A stretch of 64,000 nucleotides of DNA from Phycisphaerales bacterium. GTDB taxonomy: Bacteria > Planctomycetota > Phycisphaerae > Phycisphaerales > UBA1924. The position numbers and the translations under genes are program-made. The stretch spans positions 1-64,000 of the forward strand of contig RECY01000024.1 of the NCBI GenBank assembly GCA_007693785.1, written 5' to 3'. Positions 2,893 to 38,244 of the stretch are shown piece after piece (position 1 is the stretch's first letter; every line of letters begins with the position of its first letter). The notes under the pieces were generated by a model. The model was not told the DNA's origin. It was given only the letters and a program-made list of their open reading frames with translations, and ran no database searches.

Positions 2893-4506
2893 ATGTCCGC
2901 CAAACAGATCATGTTCGACGATGCCGCCCTTTTGGAGATGAAGAAGGGCGTGGACCGTCTCGCGGAGGCGGTGAAGTGCACGATGGGGCCGAGCGGTCGG
3001 CATGTCGTGATTCAGAAGTCGTTCGGCGGTCCGACGGTGACCAAGGACGGCGTGAGCGTCGCGAAGGAGATCGAGCTGCCGGAGGCGTTCCAGTCGATGG
3101 GCGCGAAGATGGTGCACCAGGTGGCGAAGAAGACGGCCGACAAGGCCGGCGACGGGACCACGACCGCGACGGTGCTCGCCCAGGCGATCTTCACCGAGGG
3201 CCTGCGCCACGTGGCGGCGGGTGCGAACCCCGTGCACCTGCAGCGCGGGATCAACAAGGCGGCGGAGGCGGCGGCGGAGGCGGTGGACGCGATCGCGACG
3301 CCGTGCAAGGGCAAGGCGGATTACAAGAAGATCGCGACGGTGAGCTCGAACCACGACGCGAGCGTGGGTGAGCTGATCGCGGAGGCGATCGAGCGGGTCG
3401 GTGCGGACGGCGTGGTGGAGGTCGAGGACGGGAAGACGGCCGAGACGACGCTGGAGTACGTCGAGGGGATGCAGTTCGACAAGGGGTACCTGTCGGCGTA
3501 CTTCATGACGGACCCGAAGACGGCCGAGTGCGTGCTCGAGGACGCGCTGGTGCTGATCCACGAGAAGAAGATCGCGAACCTGACGGACCTGCTGCCGCTG
3601 CTGAACAAGATCGCGCAGTCGGGCAAGCCGCTGCTGATCATCGCCGAGGACGTGGAGAACGAGGCGCTGGCGGCGCTGGTGGTGAACCGCCTTCGCGGGA
3701 CGCTGAAGATCGCGGCGGTCAAGGCGCCGGGGTTCGGTGATCGGCGGAAGGCGATGCTGAGCGACATCGCGGTGCTGACGGGCGGGTCGTTCTTCAGCGA
3801 GGACCTCGGGCGGAGCCTGGAGTCGATCGAGCTGAAGGAGCTGGGCAGCGCGAAGAAGATCACGCTGACCAAGAACGATACGACGATCATCGAGGGTGCC
3901 GGGAAGAAGAGCGAGATCAAGGCGCGGGCCGAGCAGATCCTCGCGCAGCACGAGAAGTCGACGAGCGATTACGACCGCGAGAAGCTGATGGAGCGTCACG
4001 CGAAGCTGACCGGCGGCGTGGCGATCATCCACGTCGGCGGGTCGAGCGAGCAGGAGCAGAAGTCGCGGAAGGACCTCGTGGACGACGCGCTGCACGCGAC
4101 GCGGGCGGCCGCGAAGGAGGGGTACGTCCCCGGCGGCGGCGTGGTGTACGTGCGTGCGATCGATGGCGTGCTCGCGGCTCAGAAGAAGGCGAAGGGTGAC
4201 GAGAAGCTGGGCTTCGACATCCTCGCGCGGGCACTGGCGTACCCGGCGGCGCAGATCGCGAGCAACGCGGGCTTCGACGGGGACCTCGCGGTGGAGACGA
4301 TCCGCGAAGAGGGCGGGAACGTCGGGCTGAACGCGGCGACGGGTGACTACGAGGACCTGGTGAAGGCCGGGATCATCGACCCGGCGCTGGTCGCGAAGCA
4401 GGCGATCATCAACGCGGCGAGCGTGAGCGGGCTGATGCTGACGACCGACGTGCTGCTGACGGACCTGAAGGATGACGCGAAGGTGGAAGTCGGCGCGTCG
4501 AGCTGA
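2893..4506 (+). CDS. groEL: Chaperonin GroEL, copy 2 (no Gly/Met tail)
   Basis: Second type I chaperonin subunit, 537 residues. All hallmarks are present: [33 protein letters not shown] at the ATP site, [13 protein letters not shown] in the apical domain, YVPGGGVVY and [19 protein letters not shown]. The C-terminus ends KVEVGASS instead of the Gly-Gly-Met repeat of copy 1. It also lacks the Gly-rich stretch, so it is probably a specialised or stress-related ring. ATG at 2893 has AAGGAG about six bases upstream. Part of the groE-dnaJ-grpE cluster; a terminator follows at 4561. The two proteins are clearly diverged, so this is not a recent duplication. Confidence 0.97.
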
Positions 4507-28697: not shown

Positions 28698-28771
28698 GGG
28701 CGTATAGCTCAGTTGGCTAGAGCGCTGCTGTCACATAGCAGAGGTCACTGGTTCGAGTCCAGTTACGCCCA
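28698..28771 (+). tRNA. tRNA-Val (anticodon CAC), 3' end is an attachment site
   Basis: A full cloverleaf: acceptor GGGCGTA/TACGCCC, D arm GCTC-AGTTGGCTA-GAGC, anticodon stem CTGCT/AGCAG around loop GTCACAT (anticodon CAC), T arm ACTGG-TTCGAGT-CCAGT, discriminator A. CCA is not encoded. Base 32 of the loop is G, where a pyrimidine is usual. The last 21 bases (28751-28771) recur at 38224-38244, and an integrase gene runs into the tRNA from the other strand, so this is the attB of the element at 28772-38244. Its natural terminator now lies 9.5 kb away. Confidence 0.93.
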
Positions 28772-30083
28772 TTAACTTATTTTCCACAGAATCACACACG
28801 ATACCACAGCCAACCATAAGCCCTTGATTTTCATGGCTTTCCGGTTGGCTTCGTTGTTCCTTGGGTTTGTGTGGGCGCGCCTGTGTTGCCGGATTTGTTG
28901 CCATAGTTGTTGCCGGATTTGTTGCCGCCTTACCGATCCCCGCCGCAAGGTCAAAGTGTGCGTCCCGGGTTTGCAGGTAGTGCTGAGCCGCGATCATCGG
29001 GCTATGCCCGAGCCAGCCGGCGACGACGTGGGCCGGGAAGTGCTCCACCCAATCCGTCGCGCACGACGCCCGCAGGTTGTGGAACAGCCGGGGCCAGGGC
29101 TTCACACCCGCCCGGGCGATGATCCGTTCAAACTGAGTGCGAAGGTTCACCCGCCCATCCCGCAGGCGGGGCACCACGGCTTCCGCCCCCGGCTCGGCCC
29201 GGTCGAACAAGGCTTGCAGGATCGGGCGCAGTTCGGGGGCAATCGGGACCACCCGAACCGCGTGCCCTTCATGGCTGGCTGTTTTGGGGCTCCGAACGGT
29301 CATCCGGCCCTTGTCCCAAACAATGTCACCCCACCGCAGGCCGACGACTTCGGACGGGCAGCGGAGCCCGGCGAACCGCGACAGGGCGACGATCGCGCGC
29401 CATTCGTCATCGGGGCACGCCGCCAGAATCGACCGGATGGTTTCGACTGGGACGTAGAACGCGCGATCGGGGTTCGATTGCGAACCGGCCCGCAGGTCGG
29501 CAAACGGGCTGGAGTCCATCAAGCCCCAGCGTACCGCCCGCTTGAAGATCGCCCGCGCAACGTGAACACGCTTTGCCACTGTTGCCGGTGCCAGTTGCTT
29601 TGTGGTTTCGTTCCCGTCTTCGTCGGTCACGTTCACCGGCTCGGCGATCGACTTCCGCCAGCTATCCGCGTATGCCGGGGTAATTGTCACCAGCGGGGTA
29701 TCGTCGCCCAGGTGCGCCCGCAGACTGTCGGTTGTTTGCTTGTACGCCGCCATCGTTGATGCCTTCACCGACGCCGCCGCGCAGAACCGATCCAGCAGCA
29801 TCCCCACCGTTACTACCGCCGTGTCCCGTGGTTGGGCCAGCTCCAGCGCGACTACCCGGGCATGGATTCGATCATCGATCCGTTCCAGCCACCGCACAGC
29901 GTCGTAGTGCGGGGCCGTGTCGTGTTGCTTGGCTTCCAGCAGGTGCTCAAGCGCCGACAGGGCCAGCAGCGCGTTCCGTTCAGAACACTTGCCCAGCCGC
30001 AGGCTTTTCTGTTTCCCCGCCGTATCACGGAACATGATCCGCTTCAACTCGCCCCGCTCGCCTTCGCGTCCGATGCTCGCCAT
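28731..30083 (-). CDS. int: Tyrosine recombinase (integrase), truncated by integration
   Basis: Site-specific recombinase that should move the element. 450 residues as integrated. N-terminal arm-binding/SAM-like core domain (residues about 85-190: VGMLLDRFCAAASVKASTM), catalytic domain with Arg241 (RFAGLRCPSEV), His335 and Arg338 (HNLRASC), His360 (WLGHS) and Tyr369 (QHYLQT). A Thr/Asn-Pro-Ala linker (ATNPATTMATNPATQ) follows. The last codons (MGVTGLEPVTSAM) are read from the tRNA, and the stop lies in the anticodon loop. The same frame continues from the att core at the right end (38223-38006), so the excised circle should encode 516 residues. Confidence 0.92.
   Translation of the reverse strand: MASIGREGERGELKRIMFRDTAGKQKSLRLGKCSERNALLALSALEHLLEAKQHDTAPHYDAVRWLERIDDRIHARVVALELAQPRDTAVVTVGMLLDRFCAAASVKASTMAAYKQTTDSLRAHLGDDTPLVTITPAYADSWRKSIAEPVNVTDEDGNETTKQLAPATVAKRVHVARAIFKRAVRWGLMDSSPFADLRAGSQSNPDRAFYVPVETIRSILAACPDDEWRAIVALSRFAGLRCPSEVVGLRWGDIVWDKGRMTVRSPKTASHEGHAVRVVPIAPELRPILQALFDRAEPGAEAVVPRLRDGRVNLRTQFERIIARAGVKPWPRLFHNLRASCATDWVEHFPAHVVAGWLGHSPMIAAQHYLQTRDAHFDLAAGIGKAATNPATTMATNPATQARPHKPKEQRSQPESHENQGLMVGCGIVCDSVENKLMGVTGLEPVTSAM
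28751..28771 (+). repeat. Attachment site, left (within tRNA-Val)
   Basis: GTTCGAGTCCAGTTACGCCC plus A, the T-arm and acceptor end of the tRNA. Identical over 21 bases to 38224-38244. It keeps the tRNA gene intact after insertion. Confidence 0.92.
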
Positions 30084-31570: not shown

Positions 31571-32023
31571 CGACGCGCGACGGTCGGGGTGTTCCGGGTC
31601 ACTTCGGAAAAGGGGTACACAGGGCACGTCGCCCCACGCATCCGCGCCCTCGGGCGGTTCGGGCAAGGGGGGAAGGGGGTCGGGTGTCGCCCGGTCGGCG
31701 TCGATCGCCTCGCCGGTTGCGATCAGCCATGCCGGCGAGCCGGGGTGCGTTGGAAGTCCGAGTTCTTCCGCGACGCCCAGCCGTTCGGCCAACACGTAGC
31801 GCCCTTCCTCGCCGGCGACGGGCGCGGTCAGCATGAACAGCACGTCCAGCTTGTGTTGTCGCAGTTCGGCGACTTCGCCGGGCAACAGCTCGCCGCGCCA
31901 CGCGACGCGATCCGAGCCGACCGCGGCAAGCTCGACCCCACGCGACCCGAGCCCGCGGAGCAGTTCGGCGACCACCGGCGGAAGCTCGCCGATCCCTCTG
32001 AAGTTGGGACGGTGCGGGATCAC
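31523..32023 (-). CDS. Small protein with TubC-docking-like N-terminus
   Basis: 166 residues; ATG overlaps the primase stop (ATGA at 32020-32023), so the two are coupled. Residues 12-55 (ELPPVVAELLRGLGSRGVEL, then RVAWRGELLPGEVAELRQHK) resemble the TubC N-terminal docking fold, which is often found attached or next to primases of mobile elements. A GSPAWLIATGEA segment follows, then a Pro/Glu-rich stretch. The last 20 or so residues are read out of frame through a duplicate of its own 3' region, so the present C-terminus is probably not original. Function unknown; an accessory to the primase is inferred from coupling. Confidence 0.7.
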   Translation of the reverse strand: MIPHRPNFRGIGELPPVVAELLRGLGSRGVELAAVGSDRVAWRGELLPGEVAELRQHKLDVLFMLTAPVAGEEGRYVLAERLGVAEELGLPTHPGSPAWLIATGEAIDADRATPDPLPPLPEPPEGADAWGDVPCVPLFRSDPEHPDRRASRTGSGWQHTRARRRG

Positions 32024-34575
32024 AGCAGCCCACTCCAGCCGGCGGGCAGCGCGCCATTCTCCGCGGTCGCTTCACTTGCGACAGCGACGAAACCCCCCGC
32101 CGCGATACCGCCAGTAGGGGTTTCGTCGCATGGCGCAGCGTCGCCGCGCTGAGACACCAGCCGGACGCGCTTCGCCGGACGCCCGCCCTTCGCGCCGTCG
32201 CCATCCTGAACCCACGCCGCGACGCTCGACGCCACCAGTTCGCCCAGGGCCTTTGCGGCCCGTTCAGGGTCGCCGCGGAACGCGCTCGGGCCGCGGGTCA
32301 GGTCGCGGACCGTCGCCGTGCCGCCTTTCGATTCGATCCACTCCACCAGCGCCGCACGCTCGCGGTCTTCGGGCGAGGCGGTCAGCCCTTCCCGCGCATG
32401 CCGCTCGGCGTCCGCCGCGAAGCGTCCCCACGCCAGCGCCGCCCGCATCGTCGCCCCGTCGATCGGGCCGGCGTCGTCGGGCGTGCCACGCACCGCCCAG
32501 GTCGCCAGCGCGTGCAGCACGCCCGCGATCCGCAGCACCGCGCCGGGAAACTTGCTCGCCCATGCTCGGCGTTCGTAGTGCTCCCCGCCCGGCCGCATCG
32601 CCGGTTCAACTTCGCGACGGAAGGCGACGAACAGCGTGCCCGCCTCGGGGTCGAGCCGTACCGTCGCCGGCGTGTCGCGGGGCGCGTGCTCCAGCAGCCC
32701 GCGGATCAACCGATCCCACGCGCGGGCCAGCCGCTCGGGCACGGGTGGAGTTTCGATCTTGCGGAAGCCCAAATTGTCGGGCGGCCTCGACACCAGGAAC
32801 CGGGCGAGGAAGCCGTTGGTGCGTGCGTCCGCGTTCGCCCAAAGTTCTTCCACCGCTTCGGGTTGAGCGACGACCGCCAGCGCCGCCGCGGGGCGCGGAA
32901 CGTGGACGCTCTCGCGCCCCATCCGATCCTCGTGGATCGCGTCCCCCGCGTGCGCCTTGAGCAGTGTTCCCCAGGCGGGAGACTCGCCGTAGCGCCGGCC
33001 CGTGGTCGTGCGCAACACGTCCGCCTCGGGATCAGCAACCAACGCCCGCCCGCCGTGCCGCGCGAGGTGCCGAACCAGGGCCTCGGGCGTCGCGTCGGAA
33101 ATGACCAGGCGCGGGGCTTGGGGCACGTCGGGCAGCGTTTCCAGCTCCGCCGCCGCCGCGTCCGCGTCGTGTTTTGCGGCTTTGTATTGGTCGGGTTTCG
33201 CAGAAACGGCCTTTCGCCGCAGCGCGTCGTAGCGATCCTCAGCGAACGCCCGATCCCGCACAGCGTCGGCAATGAACGGCGCGAGGCGTTCGGCTTCTTC
33301 CCGCTCCCAAGCATTGACCGGCGCGGTCAACGCCCGGAACACCGCCGACTTCCGCGACCCGCTCGGCGCGAGCACCAGCGTCCACAGCGGGGCGGGCTCG
33401 ACCCATCCCCCGCCGTCGATTTCAACCACGCCCGCGCAGCACGCCGACGCGATCGACAGCGCAAGCATCGCCGCCATTTCGGGCGGGGTTTGCGTTGCCT
33501 CGCTCAGTGCCGCGAGAAACTCTCGTAGCTCGCTCAGGCGCTCGGGGAACACTTCGGCCAGGTCGAGCGTCGGGGCGAGCGCCGGAGCCGGCACAGTCAA
33601 TCCAGCCGAATCCTCGGGCTCACTCGCGTCAGCCAGTGCTTCAATCTCCGCGCGGATCGCGTCCGCGTCGCCGGCGCGATGCTCCACCAGGTCAGCCATG
33701 TCACCGCCTTCGGGCATCCCTGCCCAGAGTTCAACCAGCCGAACCACCCGCACCGACACCGCGCCCGCCGCGCTGGCGAGCCGCGCCACGTCCTCCGCGT
33801 ATTTCTCGCCGGCGTCGTCGTGGTCGGGGAGGATCACCACGTCTCGCCCGGCCATCGGGGACCAGTCCGCTTTGTTCGCAGACTTCGCCCCGTGGGGGCT
33901 TGTCGTCGCGACCAGCCCAGCCGCTCGCGCCGCGTCCGCCGCCTTCTCCCCTTCGCACACCCAGACCCGTGCGCCCGCCGGCGTCGCCAGCAACTCGGGT
34001 AAGCCGTACAGCCGGCGCGGCTCCGGCATCCCGCCGATACACCACCCCGACCCGTCCGGCAGCCGCGACACGGGGCGAATGGTCTTCCCGGTCGGCGTGT
34101 TCCAGCGTGCAACAACGCCCACCGGCTCGCCGCCGGCGTTGTGGTAGGTCCAACTCTCCGAGCGCGGGCCGAGCCGAGCCTCGATATACGCCATCGCTTC
34201 GCGGGCGGTCGGAAAGGTGCGGGGCTTGGGTTCGGGCCGGCGGCTTGCGACGAAACCCGCCGTCGCGATACCGCTAGCAGGGGTTTCGTCGCCGTCGCAG
34301 CGTCGCCGGGGCTTCGGCGCGTGCCCGTTGCGTCGCGTCGGGTCGTCCGCGAACAGGTCGGACCACTTCAAGCCGATCGCGCGCAGCACGTCCGACGTGT
34401 CGCATCCGCGCTGGCATTTCACCAACACCTTCCCGTTGTCTCCGGTGCCGATCGACAGGGAAGGGTTCCGGTCATCGTGGGCGGGGCACCGGCAGGACCA
34501 GCCTTCGCCGGATCGCTTGGGCGTGTGTCCGTGCTCGCGCAGGGCGGAGAGAATGCGGTTTACGGGGTCGCTCAT
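32020..34575 (-). CDS. CHC2-Toprim primase with DUF3987 domain
   Basis: Likely replication protein of the element, 851 residues. CHC2-type zinc finger in residues 24-65 (GWSCRCPAHDDRNPS, VKCQRGCDT), Toprim-like domain about 195-285 (GARVWVCEGEKAADAARAAG, DVVILPDHDDAGEKYAEDV), then a DUF3987 region from about 330 with a P-loop-like LAPSGSRKSAVF. The C-terminal part has winged-helix-like segments (LVEWIESKGGTATVRDL). Two palindromic repeats are inserted in frame: residues about 95-110 and 816-831 read GDETPASGIATAGFVA and CDETPTGGIAAGGFVA. Coupled by ATGA overlaps to the genes on both sides. Confidence 0.88.
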   Translation of the reverse strand: MSDPVNRILSALREHGHTPKRSGEGWSCRCPAHDDRNPSLSIGTGDNGKVLVKCQRGCDTSDVLRAIGLKWSDLFADDPTRRNGHAPKPRRRCDGDETPASGIATAGFVASRRPEPKPRTFPTAREAMAYIEARLGPRSESWTYHNAGGEPVGVVARWNTPTGKTIRPVSRLPDGSGWCIGGMPEPRRLYGLPELLATPAGARVWVCEGEKAADAARAAGLVATTSPHGAKSANKADWSPMAGRDVVILPDHDDAGEKYAEDVARLASAAGAVSVRVVRLVELWAGMPEGGDMADLVEHRAGDADAIRAEIEALADASEPEDSAGLTVPAPALAPTLDLAEVFPERLSELREFLAALSEATQTPPEMAAMLALSIASACCAGVVEIDGGGWVEPAPLWTLVLAPSGSRKSAVFRALTAPVNAWEREEAERLAPFIADAVRDRAFAEDRYDALRRKAVSAKPDQYKAAKHDADAAAAELETLPDVPQAPRLVISDATPEALVRHLARHGGRALVADPEADVLRTTTGRRYGESPAWGTLLKAHAGDAIHEDRMGRESVHVPRPAAALAVVAQPEAVEELWANADARTNGFLARFLVSRPPDNLGFRKIETPPVPERLARAWDRLIRGLLEHAPRDTPATVRLDPEAGTLFVAFRREVEPAMRPGGEHYERRAWASKFPGAVLRIAGVLHALATWAVRGTPDDAGPIDGATMRAALAWGRFAADAERHAREGLTASPEDRERAALVEWIESKGGTATVRDLTRGPSAFRGDPERAAKALGELVASSVAAWVQDGDGAKGGRPAKRVRLVSQRGDAAPCDETPTGGIAAGGFVAVASEATAENGALPAGWSGLL
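32084..32129. repeat. 46-bp palindromic repeat, copy A (inside primase 3' end)
   Basis: Arms GCGACGAAACCCC (32084-32096) and GGGGTTTCGTCGC (32117-32129) around a 20-base centre containing CCGCGATACCGCCAG. A conserved flank (GCAGCGTCGCC) follows. In the minus-strand frame it encodes DETPTGGIAAGGFV. Confidence 0.85.
34247..34292. repeat. 46-bp palindromic repeat, copy B (inside primase 5' part)
   Basis: Arms GCGACGAAACCC (34247-34258) and GGGGTTTCGTCGC (34280-34292), centre with TCGCGATACCGCTAG, followed by the flank CGTCGCAGCGTCGCC. It has the same length and the same reading phase as copy A and encodes DETPASGIATAGFV. Confidence 0.85.
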
Positions 34576-34781
34576 GCTGCGACCCCCTTGCTCGCTTCGA
34601 TCAGCCGCCGCAGGTCGGCCACGTCGAACAGACGCCGCGCCGCGATCTTCACGCTCGGCAGTTCGCCGCGTACCCGCAGGTTGTCGATGGTGCCGGGCGA
34701 CACGCCCAGCAGGCGGGCAGCTTCCCGCCGATCCACCAGCAGCGGGGCGGTTGTTGTCGGGTGGCTCGGGTTAGCTGTCAC
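34572..34781 (-). CDS. Excisionase-like helix-turn-helix protein 1
   Basis: 69 residues, GTG start. A single winged HTH of the MerR/excisionase (helix-turn-helix 17) type: LVDRREAARLLGVSPGTIDN followed by LRVRGELPSVKIAARRLFDV and ADLRRLIEASK. Such small proteins in integrated elements act as recombination directionality factors or as regulators. It overlaps the primase start by four bases and the second HTH gene by eleven. Confidence 0.85.
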   Translation of the reverse strand: MTANPSHPTTTAPLLVDRREAARLLGVSPGTIDNLRVRGELPSVKIAARRLFDVADLRRLIEASKGVAA

Positions 34782-34965
34782 GCGACACCCCGCTTTCCTG
34801 CCGCTCGGCCAGAGCTTTCAGCACCGCCGCCAGGTCGAACATGCGCATCCGACCCGCGCGGATGCAAGGCAACCGCCCCGCGTCCGCTTCTCGCTTCAAC
34901 CACGCGACAGGTAGCCCCGTGCGCTCCGCCAGACAGTGCAACGTCAGAAGTTTTGCGTCGTTCAT
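34771..34965 (-). CDS. Excisionase-like helix-turn-helix protein 2
   Basis: 64 residues from ATG 34965 (the frame is open further upstream, but that part is unlike the family). LTLHCLAERTGLPVAWLKRE, then ADAGRLPCIRAGRMRMFDLA and VLKALAERQ: a helix-turn-helix with the wing typical of excisionase/AlpA-like proteins. It is the partner of the HTH gene it overlaps; one of the two is a plausible excisionase and the other a transcription switch, but sequence alone does not say which. Confidence 0.8.
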   Translation of the reverse strand: MNDAKLLTLHCLAERTGLPVAWLKREADAGRLPCIRAGRMRMFDLAAVLKALAERQESGVSRDS

Positions 34966-35053
34966 GCGTCGAGCATTGACGCGAGAAAACTCGAATGAAA
35001 CGCGACAGGATCGCGCCTCACGCACCCTCACGGATTTTCATGGATTTTCACGC

Positions 35054-35806
35054 TTAGCGCGGAACGCCGGACGGCCACCAGCGCCGTGCATCGGGAACGT
35101 AGTAGCACACCACGCCATCGATAACCTGCGTGCGCACGCGCTTGGTCTTCCGTTTCGGCGATGCCGCCTGACGCAGCTTATCTGCCATTCCCTTATTGAA
35201 ATACGTCGCGGGCCGATACTCGCCGTTGTCCCCGTCACCGTCGCCCCCACCCGCCGCCGCCGGCACCGATATGTCCGCAAGAAGCGCCAAATGCTCGGCG
35301 AGCGCGATCGCCTTCGCAAGCGATTCGGCGGTCAAGTGCTCACTACAGATGGTGAAGGGCGACGGGTCCAACCGGTGCGCAATGGCGGTGCGCTGCAAGT
35401 AAGGCACGAAGGAAATAGATCCAATGACCGCAAGAATCTGAAAACAAGCGATATCTTTTTTGAATCCCCGGAGTTCGTCATCGTTGGGATCGGCTTCAAG
35501 CGCACGATCCACCAACGGTTCGATATGCATAAGCTCAATCAGGTGCTTGAGTGCGATCCCGAGGCACCCATAGTCTTCCGCCGCCTCGCGGAGCCGATCG
35601 CCGTTCAGTGCCATCGGTGGTTCGGGGTAGCGATCCCGAGCCCCCAAGATCCGATCGATTACACGTTGCTGAAGCGCATTGCGCAGTTCGATCGCATCGC
35701 GCACTTCAAACGCTTTGGATTGTGTCCTGGAAACGGCGGGGCTTGCTTCGGGTGCCTTCGCCGGCGCGTTCTTCTTTGCCTTCGTCCGCGCGGCTTTCTT
35801 CGCCAT
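35054..35806 (-). CDS. Unknown element protein with basic N-terminus
   Basis: About 250 residues from the ATG at 35806 (an upstream in-frame ATG at 35908 is possible). The N-terminus is a Lys/Ala/Pro tail (MAKKAARTKAKKNAPAKAPE), followed by a mostly helical domain (VRDAIELRNALQQRVIDRIL, REAAEDYGCLGIALKHLIEL, FKKDIACFQILAVIGSISFV). A Gly/Asp linker leads to a C-terminal KRVRTQVIDGVVCYYVPDAR, which could be a small DNA-binding or wing-like unit. Not recognised. It lies upstream of the HTH pair. Confidence 0.7.
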   Translation of the reverse strand: MAKKAARTKAKKNAPAKAPEASPAVSRTQSKAFEVRDAIELRNALQQRVIDRILGARDRYPEPPMALNGDRLREAAEDYGCLGIALKHLIELMHIEPLVDRALEADPNDDELRGFKKDIACFQILAVIGSISFVPYLQRTAIAHRLDPSPFTICSEHLTAESLAKAIALAEHLALLADISVPAAAGGGDGDGDNGEYRPATYFNKGMADKLRQAASPKRKTKRVRTQVIDGVVCYYVPDARRWWPSGVPR

Positions 35807-35952
35807 TGATTCACTCGCTTTCTCGGGCCGGTCGGGCGGGGCTTTGGGACGAGTGAACCCAAAGCCCCAGCCCGATCCGTTCACCGGGAGATCAAACCCG
35901 GTGCCCACTGCCCAAGGATAGCAGGCACTAACCAGCGGGGCGGCTCACCGAT

Positions 35953-35998
35953 GCGACGAAACCCCCCGCCGCGATACCGCCAGCCGGGGTTTCGTCGC
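35953..35998. repeat. 46-bp palindromic repeat, copy C (intergenic)
   Basis: Arms GCGACGAAACCCC (35953-35965) and GGGGTTTCGTCGC (35986-35998), centre with CCGCGATACCGCCAG, flank CGTCGCAGCGTCGCC after it. It sits between the zinc-ribbon gene and the unknown protein gene and is the most regular of the three copies. Confidence 0.85.
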
Positions 35999-36018
35999 CG
36001 TCGCAGCGTCGCCACCCC

Positions 36019-36702
36019 TCACCGATGCGCGATCCGGGCGCACCCCCGGCACGCCACGCCCGACGCCAGGGCGTACAGGTGAACCCGCTTCGCCCCGCAC
36101 CGCGGGCAGGTCAGGTAGAGCCGCGTTCCATAGCGGGCGTCCGGCTCGGCCACCACCACCACCCGCACCCCGGGGGCGTCGGGATCGTCCGCCGGGCGGG
36201 CGTCGATCGCTTCCACCCGCGCCGGGTCCAGCCCCTCGGTGAGCGCCTGCCGCCGGATCGCGTTCGCGTCGATGCGAGCCGGGAAGTCCGACACCCGCCA
36301 GCGTGCCCGCGGGCGGCCCGTCAGCTTCGCCGGCAGCTCACCGCCCCAGGCGTACCGCAGCACCCGGGCCGAAGCCGCCACGTCCGCCCCGGTCATCGCG
36401 AGCGACGTTTCGCACCAGGCGAGCAGCTCGCGGGCGTTTTGGTTCGGGGCCTTCTCCGGGCGCTCGGCCAGCGCCGCAAGGAACCGGGCGACCAGGGCCT
36501 CGCGGTCGGCGGCCGGGGCGTTGTCCAGCCACCCGCGCCGGATCGCCGTGCCCATCAACCGGCAGTCACCGCGGAAGTGCCGGGGGTCATCGAACAGGAT
36601 GCTAAACTTGGGGGGCGTGTCGCCGGCGTCGGTGCCGCCCGCTCCGCGAGCCGCCGGCGTCGATTCGGGAAACCCCTTCGCGGGGGTTGGGGGCGTCGTC
36701 AT
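36019..36702 (-). CDS. Unknown protein with C-terminal zinc ribbon
   Basis: 227 residues; ATG overlaps the polymerase stop (ATGA at 36699-36702). A disordered Pro/Gly N-terminus, a helical middle (FSILFDDPRHFRGDCRLMGT, LVARFLAALAERPEKAPNQN) and a C-terminal zinc ribbon YLTCPRCGAKRVHLYALASG followed by CRGCARIAHR. The helical part may be an adaptor; the ribbon is of the kind found in phage and transposon proteins. Coupling to the polymerase suggests they act together, but no function is known to me. Confidence 0.75.
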   Translation of the reverse strand: MTTPPTPAKGFPESTPAARGAGGTDAGDTPPKFSILFDDPRHFRGDCRLMGTAIRRGWLDNAPAADREALVARFLAALAERPEKAPNQNARELLAWCETSLAMTGADVAASARVLRYAWGGELPAKLTGRPRARWRVSDFPARIDANAIRRQALTEGLDPARVEAIDARPADDPDAPGVRVVVVAEPDARYGTRLYLTCPRCGAKRVHLYALASGVACRGCARIAHR

Positions 36703-38009
36703 GGGCGATCCCTTCCAGGGCGGGCGCTTCGGCCCGTCCCGTCCACGTCGGGCAAGTCCAGGTCCGGGGGCGCGCCGAAGGGGATGCGGCGCGGGGCCGT
36801 GCCGCGGGCGTCGTGCATCGCGCCCAGGTACACCACGTCCGCGCCGTACCGCAGATTGATCCGGTCCACCGCTTGCATGAGCGACGCCCGCGCCCGCTCG
36901 CCGTCGAACAGCGAGAGTTGGGCGTCGGCCCGCTCCAGCCCTTCCAGCCGTACGCCGACTTGCAGCACCCGCCCGCCCGGGGCGTCGGCCCACAGCGCCA
37001 GCAGCGCCCGGTGCAACGCCGCCGTGTCGTCCGTTGGGCGTACCGGCGTCCAGTCCCCCCACCCGCCGCCGTCAGCAGGGCGGATCGACAGCGAGAGCCG
37101 CGACGCCCGGTAGCCGAGCGAGCGCATCCGTTGGGCCGCCTTCGCCAGCAGGCGCAGGCTCACCGCCCGCGCCGCCTCGGGCGATCGGTGCGCCGGCGGC
37201 AGGACGTGTTGATGCCCGACCGTCCGCCGGTGGGTCCGCGGGCCGGGGTGTTGATCGCCGCGGAGCCAGTGCCACCAGTAGACGCCGAGCACGCTCCCCC
37301 ACGCCGCGCGGAGTTGTGCGGGCGTCCGGGCGTACAGGTCTTCCACGCTGGCGATCCCCGCCGCCCGTAGGCGTCGGTTGATCCCCTTGGAGATACCCGG
37401 TAGGTCCGTCAGGCGGAGCGCGAGCATCGGGCCGGGAAGCTCCGAGCGCTTCCAGACCGTCAGCCCGTCGGGCTTGCGGGAGCCGGCCGCGACTTTCGCC
37501 AGCAGCCGGTTCGGCGCGATCCCGACGGAGCAGGTGACGCACCCCACGCGCTCGCGAATCGCCCGCTTGATCCCCATCGCCAGCCGCTCGGCCACGTCGG
37601 GCGGGCGCTCATTCGCCATGAGTTCGCACCAGCATTCATCCACCGACTCGACCACCGACACCGGGAGCACCGTGTCGATCGCCGCGAGCAATTCGTGATG
37701 CACCCGGATGTACCGATCGGGGCGAGCTTGAACGATCGCGATGCCCGGGCAGAGCGTGCGGGCGTCCGCCACCCGGCACCCGGTCTTGACGCCGAAGGCT
37801 CGGGCTTCGTAGGACGTAGCGATACAACAGCCGGACGGGGCGGGAACGGGCGTCACGCCGACCGGGCGGCCGCGAAGCTCGGGGTGGTCCATTTGCTCCA
37901 CCGACGCAAAAAAGGCGTCCATATCCAGGAACAGGACCAGCAGTTCGGCGGGGGCGACCATGCCGACAATATACCGAACAAATACGGGATGGGAAGGGGT
38001 CGGGCTCAT
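36699..38009 (-). CDS. Y-family DNA polymerase (DinB/UmuC-like)
   Basis: Translesion polymerase, 436 residues from ATG 38009; an internal ATG at 37961 would give 420. Palm and fingers: VLFLDMDAFFASVEQ (Asp29, Asp31), SYEARAFGVKTG, and SVDECW with the catalytic Asp124-Glu125. Thumb HhH: ALRLTDLPGISKGINRRLRA; little finger domain about 270-400 (RSPEAARAVSLRLLAKAAQR). QLSLFDGE near the end is a clamp-binding-like motif. All catalytic acidic residues are intact. Carried by the element, with an ATGA overlap to the severed integrase tail upstream and to the zinc-ribbon gene downstream. Confidence 0.93.
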   Translation of the reverse strand: MSPTPSHPVFVRYIVGMVAPAELLVLFLDMDAFFASVEQMDHPELRGRPVGVTPVPAPSGCCIATSYEARAFGVKTGCRVADARTLCPGIAIVQARPDRYIRVHHELLAAIDTVLPVSVVESVDECWCELMANERPPDVAERLAMGIKRAIRERVGCVTCSVGIAPNRLLAKVAAGSRKPDGLTVWKRSELPGPMLALRLTDLPGISKGINRRLRAAGIASVEDLYARTPAQLRAAWGSVLGVYWWHWLRGDQHPGPRTHRRTVGHQHVLPPAHRSPEAARAVSLRLLAKAAQRMRSLGYRASRLSLSIRPADGGGWGDWTPVRPTDDTAALHRALLALWADAPGGRVLQVGVRLEGLERADAQLSLFDGERARASLMQAVDRINLRYGADVVYLGAMHDARGTAPRRIPFGAPPDLDLPDVDGTGRSARPGRDRP

Positions 38010-38223: not shown

Positions 38224-38244
38224 GTTCGAGTCCAGTTACGCCCA
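38224..38244 (+). repeat. Attachment site, right
   Basis: Exact 21-base copy of the tRNA-Val 3' end at 28751-28771. It has no other tRNA parts upstream and marks the right boundary of the element. Confidence 0.92.

Follow-up and report, generated by a model that had tools for sequence, protein, structure and literature searches.

Inverted repeats in a DUF3987 primase-helicase gene as candidate iterons of its own winged helix

Introduction

In lambdoid phages the replication origin lies inside the O gene, where repeated dyad-symmetric sites are bound by the initiator that this gene encodes and a silent mutation of an iteron abolishes replication; the translated stretch of extra iterons is predicted to be free of DNA contact (PMC7466680). 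In P4 the alpha protein binds the origin repeats through its winged helix (cited in PMC4234260). Replication of the crenarchaeal plasmid pRN1 needs a stem-loop of conserved structure and variable sequence, which lies directly 3' of a gene whose product, a replication protein, has a C-terminal winged helix (PMC4234260). Phage-inducible chromosomal islands (PICIs), including Staphylococcus aureus pathogenicity islands, carry two sets of iterons immediately 3' of their primase/rep gene (PMC6092414). All these statements, and those made from the same sources below, are drawn from excerpts of the papers. Here we describe three copies of a palindrome in a 64,000-nucleotide stretch of a Phycisphaerales bacterium (assembly GCA_007693785.1, contig RECY01000024.1, positions 1 to 64,000), which we call the window. 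All three lie inside an integrative element of ~9.5 kb at a tRNA-Val gene, two of them within the gene for the element's primase-helicase. Comparison with related elements indicates that they are probably iteron-type sites to which this primase-helicase binds through its C-terminal winged helix, and that they most likely mark a replication origin.

Rickettsia palindromic elements are in-frame palindromes in coding sequence, and a sequence-only reading of the window had proposed a mobile hairpin of that kind. Its two other suggestions, a replication iteron and a binding site for a protein of the element, find support here and in effect merge, since the arm type tracks the winged helix and the site lies 3' of that domain.

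Results

The palindromes lie where the sequence-only reading had placed them (Table 1). All are 46 bp long and identically oriented, with the shared arms GCGACGAAACCC(C)/(G)GGGTTTCGTCGC, of 13, 12 and 13 bp, and a AGCGTCGCC flank in register. The two copies in the primase gene are indeed in frame, copy 1 being translated as CDETPTGGIAAGGFVA in the C-terminal tail and copy 2 as GDETPASGIATAGFVA in the linker that follows the zinc ribbon; both segments are predicted to be disordered, with a predicted local distance difference test (pLDDT) below 50 in the AlphaFold model at aa 78-117 and 808-851. Copy 1 lies 28 nt past the end of the winged helix, and copy 3 keeps the ACC-N24-GGT spacing though it is free of coding constraint. 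The full repeat family extends beyond the palindrome to ~62 bp, over which copies 2 and 3 are 94% identical, and the unit of copy 2 has additional GCGACG-type hexamers on its left side on the coding strand. The three palindromes exceed chance expectation: the inverted repeat of the tail site scores 13, against 7.7 in synonymous-codon shuffles, of which 1 of 120 reaches the real score, and the score of the linker site is reached by 2 of 120 such shuffles of the primase gene.

Of 101 relatives, 40 have a homologue of the primase; with the cutoff set at E <= 1e-40, homologues occur in 46 of 163 genomes of the family and 69 of 400 of the order. For comparison, 100 homologue regions were retrieved. 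In these two positions, the linker that follows the zinc ribbon and the stretch directly 3' of the winged helix, homologues also have inverted sites, with differing arms, such as CCGTCACCAAAACCCC (twice) in locus L067 and GGCGACGGCGACGAAACC in L087. The encoded peptides differ accordingly, VTKTP..GFGDGD in L067 against GDGDETP..GSVTVA in L087, with the hexamers inverted and the symmetry retained. A first search of the relatives for exact repeated arms was empty except for L067 because most arms are imperfect, and a mismatch-tolerant search solved this. Synonymous-codon shuffling was applied to 39 of 41 loci, two genes under 560 aa being dropped. The real inverted repeat beats at least 119 of 120 shuffles in the last 65 codons of 16 of the 39 genes and in the linker of six, compared with none and one for two mid-gene controls. 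The conserved feature is thus the DNA and not the peptide or fold. The comparison of homologues that the sequence-only reading had proposed was informative: the segments are kept in place, but as a DNA symmetry and not as part of the fold, the peptides being different and predicted to be disordered. Some homologues have no linker segment.

The geometry of the sites is constant while the arm hexamers vary jointly on both sides. Each half-site consists of one or two hexamers, three loose bases and AACC, and two such half-sites are inverted with their inner ACC/GGT 24 bp apart. Among 27 sites chosen for an ACC/GGT anchor flanked by 15 positions of which 8 or more are complementary, a selection that itself favours complementarity, the spacing is 24 in 22, 23 in four and 22 in one, and 26 are in frame 0. 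When sites are chosen by the anchor only (AACC-N24-GGT, frame 0, in linker or tail), the flanks of the resulting 24 pair at a mean of 8.2 of 10 positions and 17 pair at eight or more; 105 other AACC-N24-GGT places in the same loci have a mean of 2.9 of 10, none reaching eight. Left and right arms taken from different elements pair at a mean of 5.8 positions, because several elements share an arm type. The two sites of the window count only 5 and 6 on this scale because their perfect arms stop after GCGAC.

Other arrangements are seen at some loci. The source genome has a second DUF3987 helicase (L110, G000:C42) with its own palindrome type, CTGACCCGGAAACCC, present as a copy in the C-terminal tail and another 374 nt downstream, both with a spacing of 23. 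In L098 and L103 the C-terminal domain is different, by eye another class of winged helix, and the tail has several 13-bp repeats, TGAGCGCCTTCGG / AAGATGCTCA, in both orientations. L109 has tandem 9-bp repeats, TCGGGCGAT, in mid-gene and inverted copies of them in the tail.

What determines the arm type? For 31 elements with a tail repeat score of at least 9.5 (a winged-helix match being kept in 65 of 101 loci), similarity of the tail arms correlates with identity of the winged helix when the rest of the protein, the body, is held constant (partial Mantel r=0.572, equalled in none of 2000 permutations). The correlation persists in 24 non-redundant elements (partial r 0.482, 0 of 2000), and with the winged helix held constant the tail arms do not follow the body (r -0.121 and -0.093 in the two sets). 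The linker arms, which are ~2 kb away and next to the N-terminal body, also follow the winged helix, with a partial r of 0.409 in 23 elements (0 of 2000) and 0.327 in 17 non-redundant ones (1 of 2000), against -0.040 and 0.008 for the N-terminal body. Linker and tail arms match one another better within an element (mean 14.8) than between elements (8.8), a difference reached in none of 10000 permutations, and the two arm types agree in 15 of the 17 elements having both; the permutation is the automatic test, the arm groups and this last count being typed by eye.

Locus L097 illustrates the same point. Its body belongs to the clade of L086-L095. With L118 it shares 70% identity in the winged helix and only 35% in the body, and its tail and linker sites both have the GTCTACAG arms of L118. 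This is the clearest natural experiment, in which a swapped winged helix is accompanied by swapped candidate iterons at both places. With covariation of arms and winged helix this strong, site specificity may be set by the DNA-binding domain of the initiator.

The tail site is defined by its position relative to the winged helix. In 61 of the 65 elements with a winged-helix match, the 180 nt 3' of the winged-helix codons were compared with four control windows per element, a repeat being called significant when no more than 1 of 100 dinucleotide shuffles scored as high. A significant inverted repeat is present in 32 of the 61, against 4 of 236 control windows. Of these 32 sites, 27 are coding, three follow the stop codon (L252, L100, L269) and two span it (L284, L262); the site thus goes with the winged helix rather than with the reading frame. 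Many of the elements that lack a significant repeat are closely related members of one group, whose winged helix is of the DWQR type and whose repeats are one-sided. Relatives from IMG/VR, of which 75 of 80 loci were usable, mostly match in the primase half only; a significant tail repeat occurs in 3 of the 75 and a mid-gene control repeat in 2, so that the feature is not general to every primase of this kind. A clear winged-helix match is found in three of these loci (L127, L128, L130), and only L130 among them has a significant tail repeat.

Three plasmid genes from other phyla were examined by raw score only. In a Bartonella plasmid (L287), an inverted repeat that contains TTTTGAAGG repeats lies 40-125 nt past the stop codon of a YfjI-family gene, perhaps the same design outside the frame; a Rhodovastum plasmid (L286) shows one at +17 to +92, and a Streptomyces plasmid (L126) has nothing comparable (score 8).

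Copies of the palindrome were sought well beyond the window. In the source genome (3.06 Mb, 95% complete) the pattern GACGAAACCC-N8..38-GGGTTTCGTC has exactly three matches, all within the element, and the reversed pattern has none; the genome-wide search that had been suggested thus bears out the remark that no copy lies outside the element, the remaining exact 12-mers being single arms. In a sample of the phylum, one of 392 genomes besides the source has any match to the arm pattern, unrelated and with a short loop. A search of 84,980 species genomes for the exact arms gave no related locus and four unrelated ones, by eye other hairpins, and the same search of IMG/VR gave 16 stretches that by eye are short-loop hairpins or unrelated coding matches. 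Comparison by blastn with plasmids and phages returned weak partial matches, the best E-values among the matches listed being 0.5 for plasmids and about 2 for phages. Two loci of a Myxococcales genome, L053 and L054, have long hairpins with GACGAAACCC arms; the outer arms of L053 are very long and near perfect, and this is a different repeat.

Like P4-alpha-like initiators, the primase-helicase is a single polypeptide that combines a primase and a helicase with a winged helix at its C-terminus. Its DUF3987 domain, which carries the Pfam label 'Protein of unknown function', is matched by PF13148 at aa 362-722 (E 1.1e-93); the protein also matches PHROG primase and helicase families, and its structural matches are DnaG/T7 primase and MCM-like proteins. 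The winged helix is modelled by AlphaFold with a pLDDT of 80 and matches winged-helix proteins, a common fold, with Z ~8 and up to 8.8. The origin-binding domain of P4 is absent among the 50 structural matches listed for it, which excludes nothing.

The remaining features of the element are collected in Table 1. The integrase frame terminates within the oppositely oriented tRNA-Val gene, and a translesion Y-family polymerase is carried by this small integrative element. The product of the gene at 35054-35908 has no Pfam or PHROG match, and an Rfam search for RNA families yields the tRNA alone. Elsewhere in the window, positions 1-1150 and 2986-4135, 2983 bp apart, are 65-75% similar and resemble tandem chaperonin (groEL-type) genes, named by eye.

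Table 1. Features of the element and their positions in the window (aa, residues of the primase-helicase; HTH, helix-turn-helix; ORF, open reading frame)
Feature	Position	Strand	Remarks
tRNA-Val	28698-28771		
Tyrosine integrase	28731-30083	-	PF00589, E 2.6e-13; PHROG integrase match
att-like direct repeat	28751-28771	+	3' end of tRNA-Val; 21-bp exact repeat with 38224-38244
Primase-helicase	32020-34575	-	851 aa; zinc ribbon, TOPRIM, DUF3987 AAA+ helicase, winged helix
62-bp repeat unit, copy 1	32083-32144		repeat-family search
Palindrome copy 1 (tail site)	32084-32129		in frame; primase C-terminal tail, aa 816-831
C-terminal winged helix	32158-32367	-	aa 737-806; profile match; candidate iteron reader
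62-bp repeat unit, copy 2	34246-34307		repeat-family search
Palindrome copy 2 (linker site)	34247-34292		in frame; aa 95-110, between zinc ribbon and TOPRIM
Small excisionase-like HTH protein	34572-34781	-	directly upstream of primase; HTH naming by eye from sequence
Second small HTH-like protein	34771-34965	-	naming by eye
Element gene without assigned function	35054-35908	-	similar ORF upstream of primase in L067
62-bp repeat unit, copy 3	35952-36013		repeat-family search
Palindrome copy 3	35953-35998		intergenic, between ORFs 36019-37062 and 35054-35908
Y-family DNA polymerase (impB/mucB/samB)	36699-38009	-	PF00817, E 4.2e-38
att-like direct repeat	38224-38244	+	far element end

Discussion

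The loci compared here show that the sites exist, that their geometry is fixed, that their arms change in concert and covary with the winged helix, and where they lie with respect to that domain; from these we infer physical binding by the primase-helicase and function as an origin. The tail site stands just 3' of the winged-helix codons and, in the group to which the window belongs, the frame runs across it, so that it is translated into a disordered tail. After excision of the element the primase-helicase would bind the sites, a hexamer could then be loaded on each side, and TOPRIM would prime. The linker copy may be a second origin or an enhancer.

Several observations weigh against this interpretation. 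A GC profile in 100-bp steps has no AT-rich stretch next to any copy of the palindrome, the sole marked dip within the element being 44% GC at 35400-35499. The winged helix and the tail site adjoin, and linkage or joint exchange therefore explains part of their match. Two elements are discordant by eye typing: L225 has a linker of the GTCTACAG type with a winged helix and tail of the GGCGAC type, and L227 a GGCGAC linker with a GTCACC winged helix and tail; both look like recent 3' swaps. No significant inverted repeat follows the winged helix in 29 of the 61 elements, and among the elements searched for a third site outside the primase gene only the window and L110 have one. Finally, a sequence search of the PDB with the winged helix gave implausible weak matches only, none of them significant.

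Could the palindromes serve the same winged helix in another way, as sites for autoregulation, partition, cis-preference or incompatibility rather than initiation? The covariation data are compatible with any function of a winged helix and its site, and the lack of an adjoining AT-rich region fits as well, but this primase-helicase is built like an initiator, and two known initiators of such a build, P4 alpha and pRN1 ORF904, employ or are believed to employ a C-terminal winged helix at the origin (PMC4234260); we regard such a role as unlikely, while giving it some weight. That another protein of the element, the integrase or one of the small HTH proteins, reads the sites is highly improbable. 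The HTH genes are the immediate upstream neighbours of the primase gene and their products could bind palindromes. In relatives, however, the HTH protein at this position does not track arm type: L097 and L226 have nearly the same one and different arms, which implies that it is not the reader, and it is the primase's own winged helix that the arms follow.

A hairpin in the mRNA, regulating translation of the primase or stability of its message and perhaps bound by the nascent winged helix, would account for arms that can pair in the transcript, for two-sided changes in relatives that keep the pairing and for the conserved positions. Over the 15 flank positions of the 27 sites (405 cells), however, A.C mismatches (25) are no rarer than G.T (16), so that there is no sign of wobble on the coding strand, and positions -2 and -3 are frequently unpaired; the loose bases and the absence of a G.T excess favour a protein-bound duplex over an RNA stem. 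Moreover, some sites lie past the stop codon, and copy 3 and the second copy of L110 stand outside the primase gene, each with the spacing of its own tail site. We consider an RNA role improbable. The mobile palindrome of the Rickettsia kind, a harmless in-frame insertion, is suggested by the two in-frame places in a single gene and by the linker of some homologues, which is ~24 residues shorter (27 against 51). The dispersed family expected of such an element is not seen, the genome having three copies in one element, nor is a precise absence from orthologues, which hold other palindromes of the same geometry at the same sites. With exact arms missing from related genomes and copies that pair with the winged helix of their own protein, we find this proposal unsupported and very unlikely to be right.

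If the palindromes are iterons of the primase-helicase, a broader picture is conceivable, which we offer tentatively and as quite possibly correct. These elements may be self-addressed replicons, in which a winged helix and its pair of iterons make up a lock-and-key cassette, private to the element, where the primase gene has its 3' end. Such a cassette would be swapped whole between unrelated primase bodies, with the linker site catching up later, as L225 and L227 suggest, the linker copy would be a second origin, and the frame would either run over the origin or stop before it. The hexamers are private to the element, and elements that coexist in one genome with different keys, such as GCGACG in the window and CTGACCCGG in L110, could thereby gain a privacy resembling incompatibility.

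These findings give the DUF3987 proteins a candidate origin recognisable in the sequence; relatives of the protein described here occur in many genomes of its order. A simple search rule follows, that of inverted AACC-N24-GGTT-type sites within ~60 nt of the winged-helix end, coding or not. The natural swaps of winged helices with matching sites are a ready data set for a winged-helix recognition code, and make origin specificity and element compatibility directly testable. The work also sounds a caution: where a replication gene encodes an odd repeat peptide in frame, the peptide may be an origin that is translated. We found no description of DUF3987 iterons or of co-switching of winged helix and iteron in the literature; the search covered open-licence papers, so that this absence is weak evidence.

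How, then, does this locus compare with the systems already described? The feature probably belongs with iterons that lie inside the gene of their initiator. As at the lambda origin, repeated symmetric sites are found within an initiator gene, here in stretches that encode disordered segments. Lambda O is neither a primase nor a helicase. In the excerpts consulted, lambda has four iterons and the Stx phages six, beside an AT-rich region in the middle of O, whereas the window element has single inverted pairs at the linker and the 3' end of a primase-helicase gene, with no adjoining AT-rich region. P4 alpha has a similar protein architecture, with a TOPRIM-type primase, a helicase and a winged helix in one protein, but the helicase of the window element is of the DUF3987 family and its candidate iterons lie in the coding tail. 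A second P4 origin lies inside the alpha gene, for which no paper was found. The pRN1 protein differs in having an archaeo-eukaryotic primase, and its 100-nt stem-loop is outside the gene and does not consist of iterons. Rickettsia palindromic elements differ in that the palindromes here are not dispersed, are not one family and are linked to the product of their own gene. For the PICIs the possible likeness is drawn from the position of the sites: their iterons stand on both sides of an AT-rich region that follows the gene on its 3' side, as far as the excerpts describe them, whereas the sites of the window's group are likewise 3' of the winged helix but mostly within the frame.

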